Below, one piece after another: positions 2,860 to 48,268 of a stretch of DNA of 48,540 bases. The notes beneath the pieces were generated by a model. It made no database searches, was not told where the DNA came from, and worked only from the letters and a program-made list of their open reading frames with translations. How positions within the stretch are numbered: position 1 is the first letter of the stretch; each line of letters begins with the position of its first letter. The DNA comes from Deltaproteobacteria bacterium. GTDB taxonomy: Bacteria > Desulfobacterota > Desulfomonilia > UBA1062. The position numbers and the translations under genes were made by a program. The stretch covers positions 1-48,540 of the forward strand of contig JAKPDW010000042.1 of the NCBI GenBank assembly GCA_029552245.1, read 5' to 3'.

Positions 2860-3342
2860 GATCCACGCTCCTTGTGCATCCGAGGCCTTGGGCTGCCGGT
2901 GCAAGGCCGTCCGGCCCGCTGTTTCCGCCCCCGGGACCCCGACACCAAACCTTGCATACGTCAGGGTGCCCTCGCCTCGAGCAACCCCGCCTTACGCACA
3001 CCGGCACAGACGGCCGTGATGGAAAGACCCCGGCCGACAAAAGGCCGCCTTGTTCGGCCGCGTGTCGCAAGGCGGCCTTCATGGGCCTTCAGGCCTCGTT
3101 GCATGCACAAGGTCGTGGAGTCTTTCCCGAGGGCCGCTCGTGCGCCACCCGGATGGGCGCCGTTGATCCGTACGCGCTCGCGACGCGCCTCATGCGTGTC
3201 GTTGCAGGCCACATGCCGCACACGCAGGCGAATCACCCTCTTTTTGCCCCACAGAGACCCTTTCCGTTCGCCGCACTTGCCGCTGGGCGGACCACCGCCA
3301 GGCGACTTCCCGGCCCTCACCGCAAGGATGCGCGCACGCATC
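2860..3342. other. Intergenic region between purN and the DUF523 gene
   Basis: About 480 bases with no convincing gene. The notable element is the long inverted repeat at 3041-3079, annotated separately as a probable terminator for purMN. A promoter for the DUF523 gene could not be picked with confidence. Confidence 0.6.
3037..3079 (-). terminator. Probable terminator of the purM-purN operon
   Basis: Perfect 12-bp inverted repeat (3041-3052 with 3068-3079) around a 15-nt loop. Read on the minus strand, the stem is followed by TTTTGT, a short T-tract. It lies about 260 nt beyond the purN stop and is the first good stem after it. The modest T-run makes efficiency uncertain. Confidence 0.5.
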
Positions 3343-36755: not shown

Positions 36756-37145
36756 TCAGGCCTCCTCTTTGTGTTGCCTCATGCGGCGAAGCACGAACTC
36801 GTGTTCCTTCTTGAGGTGCTCCACGAGATCGCCGAAGCGCCAGTCCACGTTCTCCCTCGTGACCATGGCATAGATGGGCTGCGGCAGGTCCCTCGTCTTT
36901 GCGTTCTTCATGATCGCGTGGATCGTCTCGGCCTGGCAGTTGAAAAAGAGGACGACCTTTGCATCAACCTGGAGGGGTTCAGGGCCGGTCTTGTCGGAAA
37001 ACAGGATCTCATGGACCATGAGGTTTCCCTGGTCAGGCTCGATGGCCTCGCATCGAGACACGCCCATCTCGGACACGAACGTAGAGAACCGTGACCGTTC
37101 GTCGTCCGTGAAGCCCCACACGTATACCCTCGGCGTCATGTCCAT
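36756..37145 (-). CDS. DUF3783 domain protein
   Basis: 129 residues. The central and C-terminal parts resemble DUF3783: a Lys/Val-rich strand KVVLFFNC, then PIYAMVTRENVDWRFGDLVEHLKKEHEF, in which VTxxNxxW is the family mark. No function is known for the family. A perfect AGGAGGG lies 5 nt before the ATG (MDMTPRVYVWGF), which fixes the start; the longer frame upstream is random in composition. It is divergent from the Rrf2-like gene, with about 210 nt between them. Confidence 0.75.
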   Translation of the reverse strand: MDMTPRVYVWGFTDDERSRFSTFVSEMGVSRCEAIEPDQGNLMVHEILFSDKTGPEPLQVDAKVVLFFNCQAETIHAIMKNAKTRDLPQPIYAMVTRENVDWRFGDLVEHLKKEHEFVLRRMRQHKEEA

Positions 37146-37287
37146 GCGACCCTCCTGTCCGTCCCCCATCCCTGTACCATACCCCTGCTGCGATCTCACG
37201 CCCATTTTTCTCAGGTGGAGCTCATCCGCCGGTGCTACCTTCACATGATCTCCATGGATGTGAAGACATCGAGAGGCGATCCAGGTC

Positions 37288-37315
37288 TTGACTATCCTTC
37301 ATGGTGGACTATGTA
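37288..37315 (+). promoter_or_regulatory. Candidate promoter of the Rrf2-like gene
   Basis: TTGACT (37288-37293), a 16-nt spacer and TATGTA (37310-37315), overlapping a GTATAC palindrome. Transcription would start near 37322, about 30 nt before the ATG at 37354. This supports 37354, not 37393, as the ancestral start. Confidence 0.5.
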
Positions 37316-37353
37316 TACAGGACACGATCGGTCTGCTCCGGGTACACGTTGTG

Positions 37354-37755
37354 ATGGGACTGACGTGAGAGGCGGGATACGCGATCAGGGGCATGCTCTT
37401 CCTCGCATCGAAGGGAAAGAAGGGCCTTCCCATGCTCTGCGACATCGCGCAGGCGGAGGAGGCCCCTCGTCTTTTGATGGCCGAGATCTTCCAGGAACTC
37501 TCGAAGAAGGGGCTTGTCACGTCCCATGTGGGTATCTGCGGAGGCTTCGCCAACCGCAGGCCGCCTGAACGGGGAACGCCGTGCGGGATGGTGATGGCCA
37601 TCGATGGTCATCTCGCACCGAAGGCGTGTCTGACAGGCTGCGGGGTATCCCCCCTCCCGGGGTCCTGCACCGCGCACCCCGTGTGGGAAAGGTTCCAGGC
37701 GCTCACCCGTGGCATCTTCTCCGAGGTGAGCCTGAAGTCCCCGGTCTCCCCCTGA
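37354..37755 (+). pseudogene. Rrf2-family regulator interrupted by in-frame TGA at codon 5
   Basis: From ATG 37354 the frame reads MGLT, then TGA (37366-37368), then EAGYAIRGMLFLASKGKKG. Rrf2 proteins begin M-x-L-T-R-E-x-x-Y-A-I-R, so the TGA sits exactly where Arg is expected; one C-to-T change (CGA to TGA) explains it. Without the stop the protein would be 133 residues, normal for the family. The remaining frame has recognition elements (LMAEIFQELSKKGLVTSHVG) and three Cys (CX3CX8C, from ACLTGCG to GSC), the usual Fe-S ligands. Translation from ATG 37393 would lose most of the first helix. It is upstream of cydAB and may have controlled it. A sequencing error is possible. Confidence 0.78.
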
Positions 37756-37834
37756 GGGAACGGGACGCGCCAGGCCCGGGTGCGCCGGAAAGGACGTTTT
37801 TCCTGGGCACTAGGTCGTCGCCAGGGAGGTTTTC

Positions 37835-39208
37835 ATGGACGTCGTGACTCTGGGCAGGTGGCAGTTCGCCATAACGAGCATGTTCCACTTCATCTTCGTC
37901 CCCCTCACGCTCGGGCTGTCGGTCCTCGTGGCCTGGATGGAATGGCGTTTCGTCAAGACCGGCGACGGGACGTGGCTGAGAATGGCGCGGTTCTGGGGCA
38001 GGCTCTTTGTCATCAACTTCGTCCTGGGCGTGGTCACGGGAATCACCATGGAGTTCCAGTTCGGCATGAACTGGGCCGAGTACTCGAAGTACGTCGGGGA
38101 TATCTTCGGCGCACCGCTGGCCATCGAGGCGACATCGGCCTTCTTCATGGAGTCGGTCTTCCTGGGCCTCTGGATGTTCGGCTGGAACAAGGTCTCGAAG
38201 AAGACCCACGCCTGGTCCATCACGCTGGTTGCCTTCGCCACGAACCTCTCGGCACTGTGGATACTGCTCGCCAACGGCTGGATGCAGAACCCCGTGGGCG
38301 CCAACATCGTAGAGCTCGCGGGCAACCCGCTCGTTTCCCGGCGGGCCGAGATGGCGGATGTCTTCGCGGTCTTCACCAACCCCTACGGCTGGGTAAAGTT
38401 CTTCCATACGGTCCTGTCCGGCTATGTCCTCGCGGCCTTCTTCGTCATGGGAGTCTCGGCCTGGCACCTCTTGAAGCCCAACGAGGTCGTCCTGTTCAAA
38501 CGGTCGTTCAAGGCGGCCGCCGTCTTCGGGCTCGTCTCCGGCTTCCTCGTCCTGGGAACCGGGGACTTCCACGGGTCTGAGATCGCCAAGACGCAGCCTT
38601 CCAAGCTGGCGGCCCTCGAGGCGGTGTGGGAAACCCACAAGGGCGTGGGCCTGAGCATCGTCGTGATACCCGACAGCGAGGCGGAACGCAACTCCCTGGA
38701 ATTGATCACCATACCGAAGCTCGCGAGCCTGCTGGCGTACCGGGATCCTGACGCCGAGATCAAGGGTCTCAAAGACATCCCCAAAGACCTCAGGCCGCCC
38801 GTGGGGCTCGTCTTCCACAGTTTCCGCCTCATGGTCGGCATCGGCATGCTCATGCTGCTGTTGTCCATTGCGGCCGTGTACCTCTCCTTCAGGGACCGGA
38901 TCGAGGCGTCTCCCCTGTTCCTCAAGCTGATGATCCCGGCCATGGCCCTCCCCTATATCGCCGGCCAGCTCGGGTGGATCGTCGCCGAGGTCGGCAGGCA
39001 GCCGTGGATCGTCTACGGCGTTCTCAAGACCGCAGACGCGGCGTCCAAGTCCGTGGATGCGGCCCAGGTCCTCTTCTCCCTTGTCGCCTTCACCGTGGTC
39101 TACAGCCTGCTCGGCGCTGTGGACGCCTATCTCCTCGTCACCTCTGCGAAGGCGGGCCCGGAGGCAAGGCTCCCTGCCGGCCTCGACGCAACCGGAAAGG
39201 GGGTGTGA
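37835..39208 (+). CDS. cydA: Cytochrome bd ubiquinol/menaquinol oxidase subunit I
   Basis: 457 residues, the short Q-loop form. Quinol-oxidising subunit of the high-affinity terminal oxidase in the inner membrane, carrying hemes b558, b595 and d. Visible ligands: His18 (b595 side, SMFHFIF), Glu98 and Glu106 (IEATSAFFMESVF), and His191 (VKFFHTVLSGYV, b558). About nine membrane helices. The conserved GWIVAEVGRQPWIVYGVL segment near the C-terminus is intact. GGGAGG precedes the ATG. The Rrf2-like gene ends 79 nt upstream, and cydB follows after 1 nt. It probably uses menaquinol made by the mqn operon. Confidence 0.97.
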   Translation: MDVVTLGRWQFAITSMFHFIFVPLTLGLSVLVAWMEWRFVKTGDGTWLRMARFWGRLFVINFVLGVVTGITMEFQFGMNWAEYSKYVGDIFGAPLAIEATSAFFMESVFLGLWMFGWNKVSKKTHAWSITLVAFATNLSALWILLANGWMQNPVGANIVELAGNPLVSRRAEMADVFAVFTNPYGWVKFFHTVLSGYVLAAFFVMGVSAWHLLKPNEVVLFKRSFKAAAVFGLVSGFLVLGTGDFHGSEIAKTQPSKLAALEAVWETHKGVGLSIVVIPDSEAERNSLELITIPKLASLLAYRDPDAEIKGLKDIPKDLRPPVGLVFHSFRLMVGIGMLMLLLSIAAVYLSFRDRIEASPLFLKLMIPAMALPYIAGQLGWIVAEVGRQPWIVYGVLKTADAASKSVDAAQVLFSLVAFTVVYSLLGAVDAYLLVTSAKAGPEARLPAGLDATGKGV

Positions 39209-39209
39209 G

Positions 39210-40247
39210 ATGGATGCCCTGTACGCCCTCCAGGTGACGTGGTTCGTGCTCTGGGGCGTGCTCTGGTCGGTCTACTTCATGCTCGACGGGTTCGTGCTCG
39301 GCATGGGCATGCTGTACCCGTTCATGGCCAGGGACGAGAAAGAGAAACGGACCATGATCGCCACGGTCGGCCCGGTATGGGACGGCAACGAGGTGTGGCT
39401 CATCACCGCGGGAGGCGCCACGTTCGCTGCCTTCCCCACCACGTACGCCCTCATGTTCAGCTACCTGTACACGGCCCTGCTCCTGCTCCTCTTCTCTCTC
39501 ATCATCAGGGGTGTCTCCATCGAGTTTCGCGGCAAGGTCGAGAAACAAGGATGGAAGCGCTTCTGGGACGTGGGCATATTCGTGGGCGGCATGCTGCCCG
39601 CCGTGCTCTTCGGCATAGCCTTCGGGAACATCTTCCAGGGCCTCCCCATGGACGCTTCCGGCTACCACGGCACCCTCGTTGGCCTGTTCAACCCGTACGG
39701 GCTGCTTGCTGGCGTGCTTTTCGTGTTCCTGTTCATGGTGCACGGTGCGCTGTACGTGTCCGTCAAGACGACCGGCGGCCTGAGCAGGAGGGCTGCGGCC
39801 TTTGCCGGGAGGTCGTGGAGCGTCCTTGCGGCCGTGGCGATCCTGTTCCTGGTCCACACCTACCTTTCGACAGGCATCTTCGCCAACTACCTCGCCTCGC
39901 CCGTCCTGTTCCTTCTCCCCCTGGCCGCCGTCTCAAGCCTGGCGCTCATAAGGCTCCAGCTTTCGAGGGGAAGCCTCGCAGGCGCTTTCGCCGCCTCGTG
40001 CTCGACCATCGTGCTCGTCTGCGCCACGGGCTTCGTCGGCCTGTTCCCCAACCTGATCCCGTCGAGCCTGGATACGGCCTACAGCATGACCATCACGAAC
40101 TCGTCCTCGAGCGTGGCGACGCTCGCCGTGATGACCGTGGTGGCGCTCGTCTTCGTCCCCGTGGTGATCGCGTACAAGGCCTGGGTGTACAGGGTCTTCA
40201 GGGGGCCATTGAACCCGGAGGATATCGACTCGCAAAAGGTCTACTGA
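39210..40247 (+). CDS. cydB: Cytochrome bd oxidase subunit II
   Basis: 345 residues with about eight or nine membrane helices. Structural partner of CydA in the bd oxidase. Signature regions: FMLDGFVLGMGMLYPF near the start, the GPVWDGNEVWLITAGGATFAAFPTTYA segment (residues ~54-80), and the C-terminal TITNSSSS stretch. The ATG lies 1 nt after the cydA stop, with AAAGGGGG inside the cydA end as ribosome site. No cydX- or cydCD-like genes follow before the convergent ubiD-type gene, so heme/thiol export and the small subunit must be encoded elsewhere. Confidence 0.97.
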   Translation: MDALYALQVTWFVLWGVLWSVYFMLDGFVLGMGMLYPFMARDEKEKRTMIATVGPVWDGNEVWLITAGGATFAAFPTTYALMFSYLYTALLLLLFSLIIRGVSIEFRGKVEKQGWKRFWDVGIFVGGMLPAVLFGIAFGNIFQGLPMDASGYHGTLVGLFNPYGLLAGVLFVFLFMVHGALYVSVKTTGGLSRRAAAFAGRSWSVLAAVAILFLVHTYLSTGIFANYLASPVLFLLPLAAVSSLALIRLQLSRGSLAGAFAASCSTIVLVCATGFVGLFPNLIPSSLDTAYSMTITNSSSSVATLAVMTVVALVFVPVVIAYKAWVYRVFRGPLNPEDIDSQKVY

Positions 40248-40469: not shown

Positions 40470-42296
40470 CTAGGGGCCGCTTGACACAAAGAGGTCCTTG
40501 AACTTCTCGTCCACCAGGGCCCGGATCTCCTCGGTCATGCGGATCTCGTCAGGCCACGTGCGCATGTGCCCATCCATGGGCCCTTTCCTCGTGGCATCGA
40601 CCACCACGCCTGCTGGGTGGACGTGGATGTCCCGGGCGGGGTCCACGTTGTTGAACGCCTTCCACAAGACCAGGGACCCGTCCGTGAGATCGACCCCGTC
40701 GTCGTACAGGACAACGATGCCCTGGCCGAGGACATCCTGGGGTATCCGTTCCAGGAACGACCTCGAGCTCCTGGCCCCCCCCTTCGCCACGCCGACAAGC
40801 ACGAGCGGGTGCACTCGCTCCTCGAAGAGTTTCCTTACCGACACGAACCCGCTGTCGGTGGCCCTCAGGCGTCTCAGGATCCCATCCCCTCCCATGGGGG
40901 GCGCCATGCGCTCCCTGCGCGTTCTCGGCATTTCCCCCGCCACACGGAACGTGGCGTCAATCCCCACTTTCAACCCGTGGAGCCCCTGGGGCGCCGAGTG
41001 ATCCAGCACGTCGAGGATACCATGGGTAAAGGTGAGGTCCGTCCACGGGTCGACGGTGTCCAGGATATGCGCCAGCAACGCGCCGCCCTTCCTGAGCAGG
41101 CTCTCGTCGTCCACCGTCACGATCATCTTGGCGAAGCTCATCTGGCCCATGCCCCACAGGCCGCTCATCACCTTGGATGCGTGGCCGGGGAATGCCTTCT
41201 CCATGGCGACGACGACAATGTTATGGAATACCCCTTCCCAGGGAAGCCAGTAGTCTCTGATCTCGGGCAGCATGGTCCTGATCATGGGCAGGAACAGGCG
41301 TTCCGTCACGTAGGCGAGGTAGCAGTCCTCCATCGGCGGCCTGCCCACCACCGTGGCGCTGTAGACGGGGTTGGCCCTGTGGGTGACAGCGGTCACGTGG
41401 AACACGGGGTACTCGTCGGCCAGGCTGTAATAACCGGTATGGTCGCCGAAGGGGCCTTCAATCCTCGTTTCGCCTGGGTCAACGTATCCCTCGAGAACGA
41501 ACTCCGACTCCGCCGGCACCTCGAGGTCCACGGTGAGGCACTTCACCATGGTCACCGGCTTCCTGCGGATGAACCCGGCGAGGATCATCTCGTCGACGCC
41601 CCGGGGCATGGGCGCCGTTGCTGCGTAGGTGACCGCGGGGTCAGTACCGATGGCCACCGCCACCTCCATGCGCCTGCCCGCCTCCCGGTACTCCTTGAAG
41701 TGGTGGGCGCCATCCTTGTGGACGTGCCAGTGCATGCCGGTGGTGTTCCTGTCGTAGACCTGCATCCTGTACATGCCCACGTTCCGCTTCCCGTCGGAGA
41801 GCCCCTTTGTGAAAACCACGGGCAGCGTCACGAACGGGCCACCGTCTTCGGGCCAGCAGTGGAGCACAGGCAGCCTGTGGAGGTTTACCTCGCCTCCCCT
41901 GTAGACCACCTCCCGGCAGGGTGGGCGCTTCGTACCGCTGAGCCTGGGCAGGAACCTCGACCAGGAAACCGCCTTGCCGGCCATCGAGAGCTTCTCCAGG
42001 AAGCTCGCGGGAGGTGTGAGTTCGAGGATCTCCCTGAGCCTCTCGGCAAGCGCATCCGGGGTGGAGCCGAGCGCGAGACCGATCCTTCGCATGCTCCCGA
42101 AGGCGTTCGTGAGCACAGGGAAGACCGAGCCGGCGACGTTCTCGAAGAGCAGGGCCTTGCCGCCCCCGCTGCTCTTGCACATTCGGTCCGTGATCTCGGT
42201 GATCTCGAGGCGGGGCGAGACGGGCTTCCGTATGCGTTCGAGCTCGCCCGCCTCCTCGAGGCACGCAATGAACTCCCCGAGATTCCTGAAGCTCAA
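40470..42296 (-). CDS. UbiD-family decarboxylase, likely menaquinone pathway (MqnL-type)
   Basis: 608 residues from the TTG start. UbiD decarboxylases need prenylated FMN; here the enzyme probably acts late in the futalosine menaquinone pathway on prenylated dihydroxynaphthoate. Family features: LSFRNLGEFIACLEEAGEL at the N-terminus, DRNTTGMHWHVHKDGAHHF, and EGPFGDHTGYYSLADEYPVF with its catalytic acidic residues. The TTG is chosen because the family begins at LSFRxL and AAGGGGTGAG lies just upstream; GTG codons at 42353 and 42338 are alternatives. It follows the UbiX-type gene by 4 nt and ends the operon. Confidence 0.9.
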   Translation of the reverse strand: MSFRNLGEFIACLEEAGELERIRKPVSPRLEITEITDRMCKSSGGGKALLFENVAGSVFPVLTNAFGSMRRIGLALGSTPDALAERLREILELTPPASFLEKLSMAGKAVSWSRFLPRLSGTKRPPCREVVYRGGEVNLHRLPVLHCWPEDGGPFVTLPVVFTKGLSDGKRNVGMYRMQVYDRNTTGMHWHVHKDGAHHFKEYREAGRRMEVAVAIGTDPAVTYAATAPMPRGVDEMILAGFIRRKPVTMVKCLTVDLEVPAESEFVLEGYVDPGETRIEGPFGDHTGYYSLADEYPVFHVTAVTHRANPVYSATVVGRPPMEDCYLAYVTERLFLPMIRTMLPEIRDYWLPWEGVFHNIVVVAMEKAFPGHASKVMSGLWGMGQMSFAKMIVTVDDESLLRKGGALLAHILDTVDPWTDLTFTHGILDVLDHSAPQGLHGLKVGIDATFRVAGEMPRTRRERMAPPMGGDGILRRLRATDSGFVSVRKLFEERVHPLVLVGVAKGGARSSRSFLERIPQDVLGQGIVVLYDDGVDLTDGSLVLWKAFNNVDPARDIHVHPAGVVVDATRKGPMDGHMRTWPDEIRMTEEIRALVDEKFKDLFVSSGP

Positions 42297-42300
42297 CGGC

Positions 42301-42912
42301 TCACCCCTTGCGGCCCTGGGTTCCCCACCGCCTCGCACGCGGCATGGGGACACCCAACGTGTCCATCACGCGCTCCACCACGAAGTCGACCAGGTCATCG
42401 ACGGTCTCGGGGTGATGGTAGAAGGCCGGGGATGCCGGGAGGATGATTGCCCCGGCTTCTTGTGCGGCGAGCATGTTCTTCAGGTGAACCCGTGACAGGG
42501 GCGTCTCCCGGGGCACAAGGACCAGGGTCCTGCGCTCCTTGAGGGTCACGTCCGCGGCGCGTTCCAGGAGGCCGGAGGTGTACCCTGACGCCACGGCGGC
42601 CATGGTCTTCATCGAGCACGGGATGACAGCCATGCCGCGTACCTGGAAGGACCCGCTCGCAACAGGCGCGAACATGTCCCGGTTGTTGTGGAGCATGATT
42701 CTCCCGGGTGCCGACCCACCGGCAGCCAGGGACGCAAGGGCGTTTTCGATGCCTTCCTCGGGCAGGCAGAGATCGTGGGAGGCAACCTTGGCCCCCATGT
42801 CGGAGACGATGAGGTGGATCTCGCACGAGCATGCAAGGAGGGCCTGCAGGAGTCTCACCCCGTAAATGGTGCCCGATGCCCCGGTTATCCCCACGATGAA
42901 ACGTTCCGTCAC
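42301..42912 (-). CDS. UbiX-family flavin prenyltransferase, likely menaquinone pathway (MqnM-type)
   Basis: About 203 residues. It makes prenyl-FMN, the cofactor of the adjacent UbiD enzyme, from FMN and dimethylallyl phosphate. Motifs: FIVGITGASGTIYGVRLL (FMN site), MAVIPCSMKTMAAVASGY, and the RETPLSRVHLKNMLAAQEAGAIILPASPAFY stretch with the conserved Arg and Glu. The GTG at 42912 overlaps the prenyltransferase stop as GTGA (42909-42912); a GTG at 42918 is an alternative start. The UbiX/UbiD pairing at the end of the operon supports coupled function. Confidence 0.93.
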   Translation of the reverse strand: MTERFIVGITGASGTIYGVRLLQALLACSCEIHLIVSDMGAKVASHDLCLPEEGIENALASLAAGGSAPGRIMLHNNRDMFAPVASGSFQVRGMAVIPCSMKTMAAVASGYTSGLLERAADVTLKERRTLVLVPRETPLSRVHLKNMLAAQEAGAIILPASPAFYHHPETVDDLVDFVVERVMDTLGVPMPRARRWGTQGRKG

Positions 42913-43778
42913 GTCCACCTCTTCGCCGTCTCGCCCGCCACAATGGCCGCGAGGACGAGTACCGATATGGCGCTGTTCACGTTGAAGAACGCGATGTCGA
43001 TCCTGCTGAGGTCATCCTTTCGAACCAGGAGGTGTTCCACCACGAAGAGCACGGCGATCGCCGCCACGAAGAACAGGTAGACCACGTGGAGGGAGAAGAG
43101 CTCGTACATGCCCGCAAGGCACGCCACACTCACCGCATGCAACAACCTGGAGATCTTGAGCGCGCCTTGGATCCCGAACCTCTGCGGGATCGAGTGCAGG
43201 CCTTCCCGGCGGTCGAAGTCCACATCCTGGCATGCGTACAGGATGTCGAACCCGGCGATGTACGTGAGCAGCGCGACGCTCATCACGCAGATCCTGAAGG
43301 TGATGGTGCCGCTCGCCGCCACCCAGACGGCCGTCGGGGCCATGCCTATGGCAAAGCCCAGCACGATGTGGGACAGCCAGGTGAAGCGTTTCGTGTACGA
43401 GTAGGCGAACAGCACGGCAAGCACCGGGATGGAGAGCACGAAGCAGAGCCTCGAGAGCATGGCGGCCGCGCCGACGAAAAGGGCGGCGGATACCGCCACG
43501 AAAGCACCGGCCCACCTCCGCGAGATGACCCCCAGGGGGATCTCCCTGTTCGCCGTGCGCGGGTTTCTCGCATCGAGGTCCGCGTCTGCTATGCGGTTGA
43601 AACCCATTGCGGCAGACCGCGCCGATACCATGGCCACGAGTATCCAGAACACGGTGGCAGGGGTCAGGGGCCTCTCCTGGTGGACGAGAACCGCGGCAGA
43701 CAGGGCGAAAGGCAGGGCGAACACGGTGTGGGAGAACTTGATCATCCTGCCGTAGGTACGTATCCTCGAGAGCATCAT
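42909..43778 (-). CDS. UbiA-type prenyltransferase (MqnP-like)
   Basis: 289 residues with about eight or nine membrane helices in the inner membrane. It attaches the polyprenyl tail to the 1,4-dihydroxy-6-naphthoate ring. The first Asp-rich motif is NRIADADLDARNPRT, the second is DILYACQDVDFDRREGLHSIP; both Mg-diphosphate sites are intact. Position after mqnB and before ubiX/ubiD makes the menaquinone assignment firm, although UbiA proteins alone are ambiguous. It starts 32 nt after the mqnB stop; two successive ATG codons are possible starts. Confidence 0.93.
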   Translation of the reverse strand: MMLSRIRTYGRMIKFSHTVFALPFALSAAVLVHQERPLTPATVFWILVAMVSARSAAMGFNRIADADLDARNPRTANREIPLGVISRRWAGAFVAVSAALFVGAAAMLSRLCFVLSIPVLAVLFAYSYTKRFTWLSHIVLGFAIGMAPTAVWVAASGTITFRICVMSVALLTYIAGFDILYACQDVDFDRREGLHSIPQRFGIQGALKISRLLHAVSVACLAGMYELFSLHVVYLFFVAAIAVLFVVEHLLVRKDDLSRIDIAFFNVNSAISVLVLAAIVAGETAKRWT

Positions 43779-43810
43779 GATGAGGACCTAGCCGCTCGCG
43801 CCCCGCCTTG

Positions 43811-44434
43811 TCAAGCACCAGGCCTTGTCGGTCCCGACCAGCCCAACTTCCAAAGGAACGTGTCCCTGCAAAAGGCGAACACCGTGTCCCTCAAGAGGCC
43901 GATGTTCCATGCGATGTCGCAGCCCGGGCTCGTGTCGCTGACAAACTTCACCAGGTGACAGGGCAGGCCATACCTCCTGCTCGCCTGGCATATGCCGGCG
44001 CCTTCCATGTCCACGAGACCAGCGAGCCTCGACATGGCCCTGCGTTCGGACGTCTCCCTGATCGGCCTGTCCATGGTGGCCAAGACGGCCTCAGGTATCC
44101 CGTCGACAATGCTTGGCGTGGATCTCATGATCTCTCCCGTTGCGACGTGCAACCGGTCGGGCTCGACCACCTCCCTCACCTGGAAGATCTCGCCAATCCC
44201 GGCATCCGGCGACAGTGCACCCGCCGCCCCGATGTTGCACACGGTGGAAACCCCGTGCCTCGTCGCGAGATGCGCCACCCCCAAGGCGGCGTTGATCTTT
44301 CCCATGCCCGTCACGACGAGGACCGTATGCCCCGACGTGAAGACATGAAACGGCGAACGGTCGACCTCCTTGAGGCCAAGCCCGGTGATGAACGGCTCCG
44401 CTTCCAGCATGGTAGCCATGGCTATCCCGATCAC
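43811..44434 (-). CDS. mqnB: Futalosine hydrolase (MqnB)
   Basis: 207 residues. A nucleoside phosphorylase-fold hydrolase (MTAN/futalosine group). It releases the base from aminodeoxyfutalosine or futalosine to give dehypoxanthine futalosine. Visible features: VVTGMGKINAALGVAHL near the nucleotide site, NIGAAGALSP, and the catalytic-region MEGAGICQASRRYGLP followed by VKFVSD with the conserved Asp. The GTG start overlaps the mqnD stop as GTGA (44431-44434). No aminofutalosine deaminase is in the operon, so direct cleavage of aminodeoxyfutalosine is possible. Confidence 0.9.
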   Translation of the reverse strand: MIGIAMATMLEAEPFITGLGLKEVDRSPFHVFTSGHTVLVVTGMGKINAALGVAHLATRHGVSTVCNIGAAGALSPDAGIGEIFQVREVVEPDRLHVATGEIMRSTPSIVDGIPEAVLATMDRPIRETSERRAMSRLAGLVDMEGAGICQASRRYGLPCHLVKFVSDTSPGCDIAWNIGLLRDTVFAFCRDTFLWKLGWSGPTRPGA

Positions 44435-45222
44435 AGGACCCCCTTCAGCCTTGCACGATCCCTCAACACCTCGATGGCCCTTCGTCCCTCCTCCCCCATG
44501 TCGATGCTGTATTCGTTCACGTACAGGGAAATGTGGCTGTCGATGACGTCTTGCCTGGTCTCCTGTGCGTGCGAACGCACGTACTCCATGGTTGCGCAGG
44601 GGTCGGCCTGCGCATGGCGGATGGATTCCCTGACGAGTTCCTCTATGCGCCCCTTGGAACCCGAGAGGTCTCTGCGCACAGCCATGCAGCCAAGCGGCAC
44701 GGGCAGCCCCGTCTCGTCTTCCCACCACCTGCCCAGGTCCACGACCTGCTCGCAACCGTACTCAGGGTATACGAACCTGCTTTCGTGGATGATCAACCCT
44801 GCATCGAACGCGCCTCCCGCCACTGCCGGCAGGATCTCGTCGTACCTGAGAACGGCCACGGTTCTCAGTCCGGGGTTCCACAGCTTCAGGAGGAGGGCTG
44901 CCGTCGTATGGCCTCCAGGCACCGCTATGCGGGCCTCGTCCAGGCGTATCCCCGGCTTGCAGGAGACGACGAGAGGGCCGCAGCCGCGGCCGATGGCGGC
45001 ACCGCTCGAGAGGATCTCGTAGCGGTCATCGAGCTTGAGCACGGCGTGTACCGAGAGCTTCGTGACGCCGTAGCGTGAGTGAAAGGCATCCCTGTTCAGG
45101 GCTTCCACGTCCCTCATGACAGGGGTGAACACGAGCGGCGACGTGTCGATGAGGCCGTGCACCAGCGCATGGAAGACGAACGTGTCGTTGGGGCATGGGG
45201 TAAAGGCGATATCCACGTGCAA
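44431..45222 (-). CDS. mqnD: 1,4-dihydroxy-6-naphthoate synthase (MqnD)
   Basis: 263 residues. It converts cyclic dehypoxanthine futalosine into 1,4-dihydroxy-6-naphthoate, the menaquinone ring precursor. The fold is a type II periplasmic-binding-like bilobal domain used as an enzyme. Signatures: IAFTPCPNDTFVFHALVHG at the N-terminus, IAVPGGHTTAALLLKL, and the FDAGLIIHESRFVY segment with the active-site His. Its start lies 3 nt after the mqnC stop and its stop overlaps mqnB by 4 nt. Confidence 0.96.
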   Translation of the reverse strand: MHVDIAFTPCPNDTFVFHALVHGLIDTSPLVFTPVMRDVEALNRDAFHSRYGVTKLSVHAVLKLDDRYEILSSGAAIGRGCGPLVVSCKPGIRLDEARIAVPGGHTTAALLLKLWNPGLRTVAVLRYDEILPAVAGGAFDAGLIIHESRFVYPEYGCEQVVDLGRWWEDETGLPVPLGCMAVRRDLSGSKGRIEELVRESIRHAQADPCATMEYVRSHAQETRQDVIDSHISLYVNEYSIDMGEEGRRAIEVLRDRARLKGVL

Positions 45223-45225
45223 GGC

Positions 45226-46302
45226 TTACCCGAACCTCCTGATCTCCCGGTAATCCGAGTCCCTTTGCACAGCCGTCTTCCCTGCATCGAGAATGAGGTG
45301 GATCATTTCGTCAACGTTCGTCCGTGTGGCGATCCCGGTCGCGCGGACCACCACCTCCTCCGTGAGCACGCCCCCCATGTCGTCCGCCCCCATGGACAGG
45401 GCCACCTGGGCGAGCTTGGTGCCTTCTGTCAGCCATCCTGCCTGGATGTGGGGGATGTTGTCCAGAAAGATCCTGGAGACCGCGACGATCCTGAGATAGT
45501 CGAGGCCGGTGCTCGGCGGCATGTCCGCAAGGCTTGTGCGCGCACTGGAGAACGACCAGGGAATGAAGGCCCTTATGATACCGGTTTGGTCCTGTACCTC
45601 ACGGATCACACCCAGGTGCTCGACGCGTTCCCGCATGGTCTCACCGAGCCCATAGGTCATGGTTGCGCTCGACTTCATGCCGTGGCGGGCGAGGCAGTGC
45701 ATGACCGAGCGCCACTGGGCCGCTGTAAGCTTGTTCGGGCATACGCGGGAGCGGACCCTGTCCACGAGGATGTCCGACGCCCCCGGCACCGAGTCGAGCC
45801 CCGCTTCCTTGAGGGCCTCCACGACCTGGTCCAGGGACAGGGAACCCTTCCTCGCCATGTGCACGATCTCTGCGGGCGAGAAGGAGTGCAGGACGACTTC
45901 CGGGAAACGCCCCTTGATCGTCCTCACCATGTTCACGTAGGTCTCCAGGGTGTAGTCGGGGTGCAGTCCCCCCTGGAGCATCACCTGTGTCCCACCGTTG
46001 ATGACCAGTTCTTCAACCTTGCCGCAGATCTCGTCCATGCTCGATTCGTACCTGCCGGGCCCGCCCGGTTTCGCATGGAAGGCGCAGAAGGCGCATGCGG
46101 CCTCGCAGACGTTCGTGAAGTTGATTATCCGGTCCACGATGAAGCCGACCGTGTCCCCGGGCACGGCCATGCGCCTTCGGAAATCGGCGGCCATCCCGAG
46201 TTCGGGCAGGTCCCACGAGAAGAGGTCGAGGGCTTCTTCGGGCATGATACGCCTCCCCTCGTATATCTTCCGCCTGAGGAGTTCCTTCGTGGTGTTGCTC
46301 AT
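45226..46302 (-). CDS. mqnC: Cyclic dehypoxanthinyl futalosine synthase (MqnC)
   Basis: 358 residues. Radical SAM enzyme that cyclises dehypoxanthine futalosine. The [4Fe-4S] motif CEAACAFC has Cys66, Cys70 and Cys73 (CX3CX2C), preceded by NFTNV. HPDYTLETYVNM and SFSPAEIVHMA are typical of the MqnC/CofGH branch. The ATG overlaps the mqnA stop as ATGA (46299-46302). The C-terminal MGADDMGGVLTEE region, also found in MqnE, is intact. Confidence 0.96.
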   Translation of the reverse strand: MSNTTKELLRRKIYEGRRIMPEEALDLFSWDLPELGMAADFRRRMAVPGDTVGFIVDRIINFTNVCEAACAFCAFHAKPGGPGRYESSMDEICGKVEELVINGGTQVMLQGGLHPDYTLETYVNMVRTIKGRFPEVVLHSFSPAEIVHMARKGSLSLDQVVEALKEAGLDSVPGASDILVDRVRSRVCPNKLTAAQWRSVMHCLARHGMKSSATMTYGLGETMRERVEHLGVIREVQDQTGIIRAFIPWSFSSARTSLADMPPSTGLDYLRIVAVSRIFLDNIPHIQAGWLTEGTKLAQVALSMGADDMGGVLTEEVVVRATGIATRTNVDEMIHLILDAGKTAVQRDSDYREIRRFG

Positions 46303-47159
46303 AGGCGCGCGCCCGCATCCAGGCGGTCTTCGACGCCGCCCTCGGTGTCCACGTACGCTGCATACCGTATCACCCTCGTCTCGGGCAGGAACCCCATCTC
46401 GCCCGCAACTGCAAGGTAGTACCCGAGCCCCTCCCTGAGTCCGGGCGTGAACCTGAACTGGAGCAGGCGGTAGTAGGCGTCGATATCCCATGACACGAGG
46501 GGATACCGCTCCCTCGCCTTCTGTATGAGGCCGGTCCTGTCGGTTCGCAGGCAGTCGAGCGATCTCCTGTACGATGCGACGACCTCGAGAATCTCTTTCT
46601 CGTGTGTCTCGATGATCTCGCTGCGGATCGCGAACACCGCGAAGACCACCGGGTAGCCCGTCTTCCTGAGCCACAGGTCGCCCAGGTCGTAGACGTACGG
46701 GTCCCTCAGCTGTCTCATGGCCTCGTTTCCTATGATGAGGGCCGCGTCGTACCCTTCCCGGTCGAGTGACGGGGACGTCCCGGAGGGAACGTATACGGCA
46801 TCGATCCCATAGAACCTCTGGAGAAGGATCTTGAGGAGAACCACCGAGGTCTTGGAAGCACTGGAGAGCCCGATGACCCTGCCCTGCAGGTCTTCTATGG
46901 GCATCCGGCTCACGAGCACCACGGACCTGACGTACCCGATGGAGCTCAGGCAGAACTCGGGAATGAGCACGAGCTCGTCCTCGAGGCCCGCGTACGCGGC
47001 CGCTGAGATCGGGCTGACGTCGAGAGACCGCTCTTGGATCATCCGGTTCAGTTCGCTCGGGTACCCGGGCACGATCCTGACCCCGCTCACGGGCTCGTAC
47101 TCGAACATGTGGTGGTAGAACGGATAGCAGTTCAGGTAGTCTATGTATCCGAGGTTCAT
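46299..47159 (-). CDS. mqnA: Chorismate dehydratase (MqnA)
   Basis: 286 residues. It dehydrates chorismate to 3-enolpyruvyl-benzoate, the entry step of the futalosine pathway. A two-lobe periplasmic-binding-like fold: the start LGYIDYLNCYPFYHHM and the PSELNRMIQERSLDVSPISAAAYA block are diagnostic, and EGYDAALIIGNEAMR marks the second lobe. The ATG overlaps the mqnE stop as ATGA (47156-47159), and the stop overlaps mqnC by 4 nt. The last ~20 residues are likely variable. Confidence 0.95.
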   Translation of the reverse strand: MNLGYIDYLNCYPFYHHMFEYEPVSGVRIVPGYPSELNRMIQERSLDVSPISAAAYAGLEDELVLIPEFCLSSIGYVRSVVLVSRMPIEDLQGRVIGLSSASKTSVVLLKILLQRFYGIDAVYVPSGTSPSLDREGYDAALIIGNEAMRQLRDPYVYDLGDLWLRKTGYPVVFAVFAIRSEIIETHEKEILEVVASYRRSLDCLRTDRTGLIQKARERYPLVSWDIDAYYRLLQFRFTPGLREGLGYYLAVAGEMGFLPETRVIRYAAYVDTEGGVEDRLDAGARL

Positions 47160-48268
47160 GATGCACGCCTTTCCCTGTAGTCTGCAGCGCAACGCACCGG
47201 GGTCATGCCCGCGTTCTCGATGAGCCTTATGAGCGTCACCTCGCTGCCGCTGTCCGCCGTGGGTGCGCCCGCAGCGTGCACGACCCTTTCGTGATGGTAC
47301 GTCCCGCCCAGGTCGTCCGCGCCGAAGCACAGAAGCGTCTGTGCCATCTTTTCTCCCAGGTACATCCACAATGCCTTGAGGTGCGGGACGTTGTGCAGGA
47401 AGACGCGTGCGGCAGCGAACAGGCGGATGTCCGCATAGCCGGTGGAGGTCTTTGCCTTGGCCCTCACCAGGGAGCCCGTCTCGTGGTAGGGGAGCGGCAC
47501 GAAGGTCTTGAACCCGCCTGTCTCGTCCTGGAGCGAACGTATCGAGGCGAGGTGGTCCACGATGTCCTCGGGCCTTTCCAGGTGGTTGTAGAGGAGGGTG
47601 GCGTTCGTCTTCAGGCCCAGGGTGTGAGCCTGGCGCATGACCTCGCACCACCTCCGGCCCGAGATCTTCCTCGGCGCGATCACCTCCCTTATCCTCGGCG
47701 CGAAGATTTCGGCACCCCCGCCGGGCAGCGCACCGAGCCCGGCTGCAATGAGGCGGCTGAAGACCTCGTCGAGGGGGATGCCGTTTTCTTTCGCGAAAAA
47801 GTCGTATTCCACTGCGGTGAAGGCGACGATGAGGGCGTCGGGACAGGTTCTCTTGATCCTGCGCAGCATCTCCTCGAAATAGTCCAACTTGAGCGACCTG
47901 TTGAGCCCGCCCACGATGTGTATCTCATCTACACCCATGGAGGCGGCCCACCTCGCCCTGTGCTCTATCTCGTCCAAGTCAAGCACGTACGCCCCGTCTT
48001 CTCCCTCGGATCTCGAAAAGGCGCAGATCGGGCAACGCAGTTCGCAGACATTCGTGTAGTTGAGGTTCATGTTCACGGAGTAGAACACCCTGTCGCCGTG
48101 AAGGCGTCTCTTGACGTACGAGGCGATCAAGCCGAGCTCGAGGATGTCATTGGTCGTGAGCATGAAGAGGGCGTCGTCCTCGCTCACAGGAAGGCACGCC
48201 TCGACCTTTCGCGCTATGTCTCTCAGGGTTTTGTTCCGGATGGTCTCGAGGTTGAGGGCCTGGTCCAA
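47156..48268 (-). CDS. mqnE: Aminodeoxyfutalosine synthase (MqnE)
   Basis: 370 residues. Radical SAM enzyme joining 3-enolpyruvyl-benzoate and SAM to form 6-amino-6-deoxyfutalosine. The cluster motif CELRCPIC has Cys75, Cys79 and Cys82, preceded by NLNYTNV. HIVGGLNRSLKLDYFEEML, NATLLYNHLERPEDIVDHL and GADDLGGTYHHE are standard. No ATG is available at the N-terminus; TTG at 48268 fits the family start (LETIRNKTL), with a weak purine run upstream, so the start is uncertain. It is the first gene of the menaquinone operon and has a good promoter upstream. Confidence 0.94.
   Translation of the reverse strand: MDQALNLETIRNKTLRDIARKVEACLPVSEDDALFMLTTNDILELGLIASYVKRRLHGDRVFYSVNMNLNYTNVCELRCPICAFSRSEGEDGAYVLDLDEIEHRARWAASMGVDEIHIVGGLNRSLKLDYFEEMLRRIKRTCPDALIVAFTAVEYDFFAKENGIPLDEVFSRLIAAGLGALPGGGAEIFAPRIREVIAPRKISGRRWCEVMRQAHTLGLKTNATLLYNHLERPEDIVDHLASIRSLQDETGGFKTFVPLPYHETGSLVRAKAKTSTGYADIRLFAAARVFLHNVPHLKALWMYLGEKMAQTLLCFGADDLGGTYHHERVVHAAGAPTADSGSEVTLIRLIENAGMTPVRCAADYRERRAS

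Follow-up and report, generated by a model that had tools for sequence, protein, structure and literature searches.

The gene at positions 37354-37755 (+ strand) of the 48,540-nucleotide stretch of DNA analyzed here (hereafter the window) is probably a pseudogene, a decaying Fe-S-type Rrf2 regulator gene that resembles GSU1639 and belongs to the cydAB-linked kind known from the Geobacterales and other groups. Decay is supported because a TGA stands at Arg5, seven of 21 otherwise invariant positions are changed, Arg59 is replaced by Val, the profile score is the lowest of the set and the promoter and operator-like site are weak; it is also supported because the same-genus genome G002 and the same-family genome G023 have no Rrf2 gene 5' of cydA while cydA and cydB of the window are full length. 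The best overall reading is of a real, ordinary and mildly instructive gene in decay.

The frame translates as MGLT*EAGYAIRGMLFLAS... (past the TGA also written MGLT*EAGYAIRGMLFLASKGKKG...) and runs to a natural stop, TGA 37753-37755, with a single internal stop and no frameshift across 134 codons. As originally predicted, that internal stop is codon 5 (TGA 37366-37368, + strand) and falls on an Arg that is conserved in all 39 orthologs. When read through, the product matches the Pfam Rrf2 family (PF02082, curated cut-off 30 bits) with 54.8 bits (E 1.5e-14) over profile positions 1-128 of 132, and the proposed Rrf2 identity is upheld by this nearly complete match. The leftover open frame from the first ATG past the stop (37393-37755, + strand), which lacks residues 1-13, still reaches 45.8 bits. 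With the NCBIfam superfamily model TIGR00738 the two products score 70.4 and 58.7 bits, slightly below the cut-off of 73.3. The start region (37351-37356, + strand) reads GTG-ATG, and since 34 of the 39 orthologs carry ATG in place of the GTG at 37351, preceding the ATG used here, the original start may have been at 37351. The Shine-Dalgarno energy (-3.8 kcal/mol) lies inside the ortholog range and is uninformative.

The comparison rests on Rrf2 genes adjoining cydA. Beyond the window itself, searching 395 genomes of the phylum for the read-through protein brought up nine matches at 38-43% identity and a weaker tail; from a CydA search of the genome contigs, the best 80 of 586 loci were kept. 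Among the loci so assembled, 42 distinct Rrf2 genes, the window counted, stand immediately 5' of cydA in the same orientation. The working set consists of 39 orthologs and the window; L047, whose contig begins within the gene, and L072, which has an internal deletion, were left out, and L159 was omitted from the trees because its cydA is short. Three further loci that adjoin cydA and were found later (L195, L197 and L198) and a fourth (L196) were not added, the L195 protein being the same as that of L040. Many of the 39 come from Geobacter records, and their commonest N-terminal start is MELTRKGEYAIRG. All 39 have an uninterrupted frame with Arg at codon 5 (CGC 23, CGA 5, AGA 5, CGT 3, AGG 2, CGG 1), and none contains an internal stop, the TAA marked in L079 being its natural end. 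One C-to-T change from CGA would be the simplest origin of the TGA in the window, and a nonsense mutation, already put forward in the original prediction, stands as the leading option. The relic itself stands 79 nt 5' of cydA in the same orientation, and trees group it with the cydA-linked Rrf2 set. A plasmid search with the Rrf2 protein returned only matches below 60% identity (27-37% among the 20 matches listed).

The lesion is not confined to codon 5. Cys92, Cys99, Cys105 and His108 are each present in 39/39 orthologs; the window has Cys92, Ser99, Cys105 and His108, together with an extra, off-register Cys96, so that the three cluster cysteines and the His are not all in register as expected of the Fe-S type. 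The claim that the remainder of the gene, including three cluster-type cysteines, is intact is therefore contradicted, and further invariant positions are altered as well. Seven of the 21 positions invariant in the 39 orthologs have changed in the window (the stop at Arg5, F41L, K44E, I74G, L76P, N90K and C99S), compared by the same rule with 4/25 in L179 and 3/25 in L167, the nearest relatives, and with 0-2 of 21-23 in eight rows of other divergent clades. Of the 50 positions at which 29 core rows are all alike, 23 (the stop counted) are altered in the window, 18 in L179 and 16 in L167. The window exceeds every other row in altered invariant positions, although at these small counts its margin over the sister rows does not reach significance (Fisher p 0.30 for 7/21 vs 4/25 and 0.22 for 23/50 vs 16/50). 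Seven of its 22 substitutions at core positions score -2 or lower in BLOSUM62 (three in each sister row, six in L005, five in L008), and when the 29 core rows are made into a profile, its score of 100.6 bits is the lowest of 40, the next lowest being 127.3. Changes occur in all regions and are densest in residues 71-91 and the recognition helix. Leaving aside Tyr9 to Arg12, several family positions are kept, namely Cys92, Cys105, His108, Trp111, Gly60, Gly63 and Gly64. The originally envisaged picture of a gene intact but for one recent nonsense mutation is not supported, since the middle Cys, Arg59, Lys44, the other conserved residues and the promoter and operator are also altered.

Residues implicated in DNA binding are among those affected. 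For the ScNsrR-DNA structure, PMC9338935 describes DNA contacts from helices 1 and 2 at their N-termini, from helix 3 along its side and from the wing. Lys5 and Phe6 engage a phosphate through their main-chain nitrogens, Lys45 may reach the bases, and most contacts are made by Arg60, the equivalent of EcIscR Arg59. A wing Arg, or Lys, is retained in the vast majority of Rrf2 proteins according to PMC9973013. The alignment with E. coli IscR is gap-free for the first 87 residues of the window copy, whose Val59 therefore occupies the place of IscR Arg59. Residue 59 is Arg in 37/39 orthologs and Gln in the other two, and neither the helix 1 N-terminus, where codon 5 is TGA, nor the wing Arg has the DNA-binding form in the window. 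The position of Lys44 would correspond to ScNsrR Lys45, judging from the residues named in PMC9338935. Given the stop at codon 5, the loss of residues 1-13 on restart, Val59 and K44E, DNA binding of the kind seen in relatives is unlikely for a truncated and for a read-through product alike.

The region 5' of the gene is likewise worn. The original prediction placed a promoter about 30 nt before ATG 37354; a strict sigma-70 scan of 37150-37900 finds no site, while a homologous TTGACT (37288-37293, + strand), the counterpart of the TTGACA -35 box of the orthologs, begins with its TTGAC at -66 from that ATG and is followed by a degraded operator-like site, which bears out the predicted promoter in part. 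Upstream sequence of 75 nt or more was available for 38 orthologs, and 33 of these carry an AGGAC-N6-GGTCC-like site 24-42 nt 5' of the rrf2 start (e.g., L035, L151 and L105), accompanied in most by TTGAC at -59 to -66; the loose pattern used to collect these sites is estimated to occur in about 3% of random 75-base stretches. The window has its version in the same place (ACAGGACACGATCGGTCTGC, 37317-37336, + strand), with half-sites GGAC (37320-37323) and GGTC (37330-37333). Of 97,042 positions in the window just one scores higher, but the site reaches only 8.3 bits, against 14.1-32.6 for the orthologs in the matrix, and its A/T-rich centre is lost. The distance from box to site is 29 nt, compared with 24-28 in orthologs with both elements (15 in L167). 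Promoter and operator-like site are recognizable but worn. The GAC-N7-GTC site would be the regulator's own operator, and the TTGACA box and palindrome 5' of rrf2-cydAB suggest autoregulation, which is predicted because this promoter and operator-like arrangement is conserved before cydAB-linked regulators. A limited survey of the literature, as far as the sources were available, gave no description of an operator-like site before rrf2-cydAB.

The adjoining oxidase genes are full length: cydA (subunit I, 37835-39208, + strand) matches PF01654 with 574.5 bits and cydB (subunit II, 39207-40247, + strand) matches PF02322 with 335.6 bits. In-frame cydA stops were flagged in some relatives; in L121 and L124 the stop is the very end of the gene, and in L118, L122 and L131 re-alignment ended short of any stop. 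Elsewhere in the genome, which measures 3.27 Mb in 95 contigs and is 99.3% complete, the only further Rrf2 match is a gene on contig C56 whose frame is uninterrupted. Beside cydAB, on the - strand at 40470-48268, are genes that resemble, by eye, UbiD, UbiX and UbiA and the futalosine (mqn) menaquinone pathway, and such neighbors would suit a menaquinol-fed bd oxidase. On the other side, at 36756-37244 (- strand), is a DUF3783-domain gene. Each of the four same-genus genomes contains DNA resembling it; three of them lack a match to the window's cydA, and in G002 it and cydA are on separate contigs. As DUF3783-like DNA thus occurs apart from cydA within the genus, cydAB may, by position, be a later neighbor of this gene here.

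Trees of Rrf2 and of CydA (39 rows each) both group the window with L167 and L179 (genomes G375 and G341) and then with L040, for which reason the regulator and the oxidase most likely arrived together, as far as trees can indicate. Within the window's class, a CydA match of E 1e-170 or better is found in only two others of the 42 genomes, its own included. These are G002, with 80% CydA identity to the window, and G023, with 73%, the two nearest cydAB-bearing relatives, and it is in both of these that Rrf2 is absent 5' of cydA. In G002 a long same-strand gene, by eye of the ADP-forming acyl-CoA synthetase type, ends about 100 nt before cydA, and in G023 the gene 5' of cydA points away. None of the five best matches to the operator matrix on the contigs of either genome lies immediately 5' of cydA. 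A perfect inverted repeat, TCAGGG-ATTA-CCCTGA, was seen by eye immediately 5' of cydA in G002 (L149, complement of about 3085-3125) and is perhaps the operator of another regulator. A second lesioned copy of a cydA-linked Rrf2 gene is present in L072 (3560-3850), from the Geobacter sp. MAG isolate NC_groundwater_1996, whose DNA is 97% identical to L162 but has an exact 120 nt in-frame deletion that takes out the HTH along with most of the wing. The window TGA or the L072 deletion could each be an assembly fault; taken at face value, the two lesions and the absences in G002 and G023 fit repeated loss of the regulator.

If the gene is decaying, the nonsense codon at residue 5 would stop translation at once, a restart at ATG 37393 would give a product without residues 1-13, and even a read-through product would lack residues that hold the cluster or contact DNA in relatives. 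Presumably no working regulator is made, and cydAB would now be under constitutive or other control; the loss may, as the original prediction put it, "derepress or deregulate" the bd oxidase. The lack of any frameshift suggests that the decay, if real, is not very old. Two further possible signals of decay were rejected. At 5.3, the window's ratio of Rrf2 to CydA distance is no outlier beside the 4.4-6.5 of other divergent copies (sisters 4.4-4.5; L046, L059 and L084 5.9-6.5). GC by codon position is suggestive in comparison with three window genes but not with the full ortholog set, in which some intact genes also have raised GC at position 2 and lowered GC3. The internal TGA was further assessed for selenocysteine, sequencing error and drift (tests grouped under the label ALTERNATIVES). 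In a neutral-drift simulation without indels, roughly 0.1-0.5 of the runs with a comparable degree of amino acid change contained at most one stop, and a single stop is thus compatible with decay but not proof of it.

It is improbable that the TGA is a sequencing or assembly error and that codon 5 is in truth a sense codon of a divergent but working regulator. The lesion is a single-base event with no further stop or frameshift in the gene, and divergent intact relatives do exist (L167, L179 and L005); C99S, R59V, K44E, I74G, L76P and the worn operator are, however, all independent of the TGA base, and the adjoining cydA and cydB are full length. About equally improbable is a shortened, altered and yet used Rrf2 protein with a changed role, begun at ATG 37393 by restart after a four-codon leader. 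The 120 codons open past the TGA without an indel, the several family positions kept and the share of simulated runs (only about 0.1-0.5) with no more than one stop would be in keeping with this; but the changes extend across all regions, most of them in residues 71-91 and the recognition helix, and the missing residues 1-13 include the beginning of helix 1, a helix that in ScNsrR binds DNA through its N-terminus as reported in PMC9338935. Nor is a native start there borne out by relatives, a condition set in the original prediction: all 39 aligned orthologs start at the equivalent of 37354 or one codon earlier and none at that of 37393, the seemingly N-truncated L199 running off the end of its contig. 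Less likely still is that restart at 37393 or rare readthrough provides a scarce, DNA-blind Rrf2 partner interfering with the cell's one other Rrf2 regulator; such a partner would be predicted to keep the C-terminal helix region and two of the three cluster cysteines.

Programmed recoding, with the TGA read as selenocysteine or read through, is the least probable of all: selenocysteine was worth testing because the genome encodes tRNA-Sec, at 74.5 bits for a cut-off of 47, and SelB, at 339.7 bits for a cut-off of 242.25, but RNA 3' of the TGA has no folding advantage over shuffled sequences (z 0.78 and -0.43) and gives no supporting hairpin, the site is Arg in all 39 orthologs and never Cys, the read-through protein lacks other conserved residues, and TGA is an ordinary stop in this genome, as it terminates 14 of the 17 window genes checked, the end of rrf2 itself among them. 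The programmed readthrough raised originally thus finds no positive support. The tRNA-Sec gene lies at 79770-79863 of contig C30 and that of SelB at 299168-301012 of contig C32 (genome G000), and with this machinery present other in-frame TGA codons of the organism could be real selenocysteine.

A dying gene is most likely, over any special decoding. The local regulator of the bd oxidase seems to have been caught mid-loss: of the three genomes of the class with the window type of CydA, two lack Rrf2 beside cydA and the third has it broken. The locus illustrates how an oxidase operon can become uncoupled from its sensor, and the ortholog comparison also provides a conserved promoter and operator-like layout for cydAB-linked regulators.

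Among characterized proteins, IscR of E. coli belongs to the same fold family, but the window scores only 43.9 bits with the IscR equivalog model (cut-off 207.55) and has Val in place of Arg59; the consensus of the IscR type 1 site given in PMC3899308 has the same GAC-N7-GTC core as the operator-like site of the orthologs. NsrR of Streptomyces coelicolor shares the Rrf2 fold, and its DNA-bound structure supplied the contact residues considered above (PMC9338935), but the match to its equivalog model NF008240 is 20.8 bits against a cut-off of 182 and the window holds no evidence of NO sensing. Closest in arrangement is GSU1639 of Geobacter sulfurreducens, an Rrf2 gene immediately 5' of cydAB (GSU1640-1641) that, in the account of PMC7726332, has the cluster cysteines and is directly controlled by Fur; the available text of that source contains no statement that GSU1639 controls cydAB. 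From gene order and genus, GSU1639 would be equivalent to the type represented by the 39 orthologs, from which the window copy differs in its codon-5 stop, its off-register middle Cys and its worn operator.
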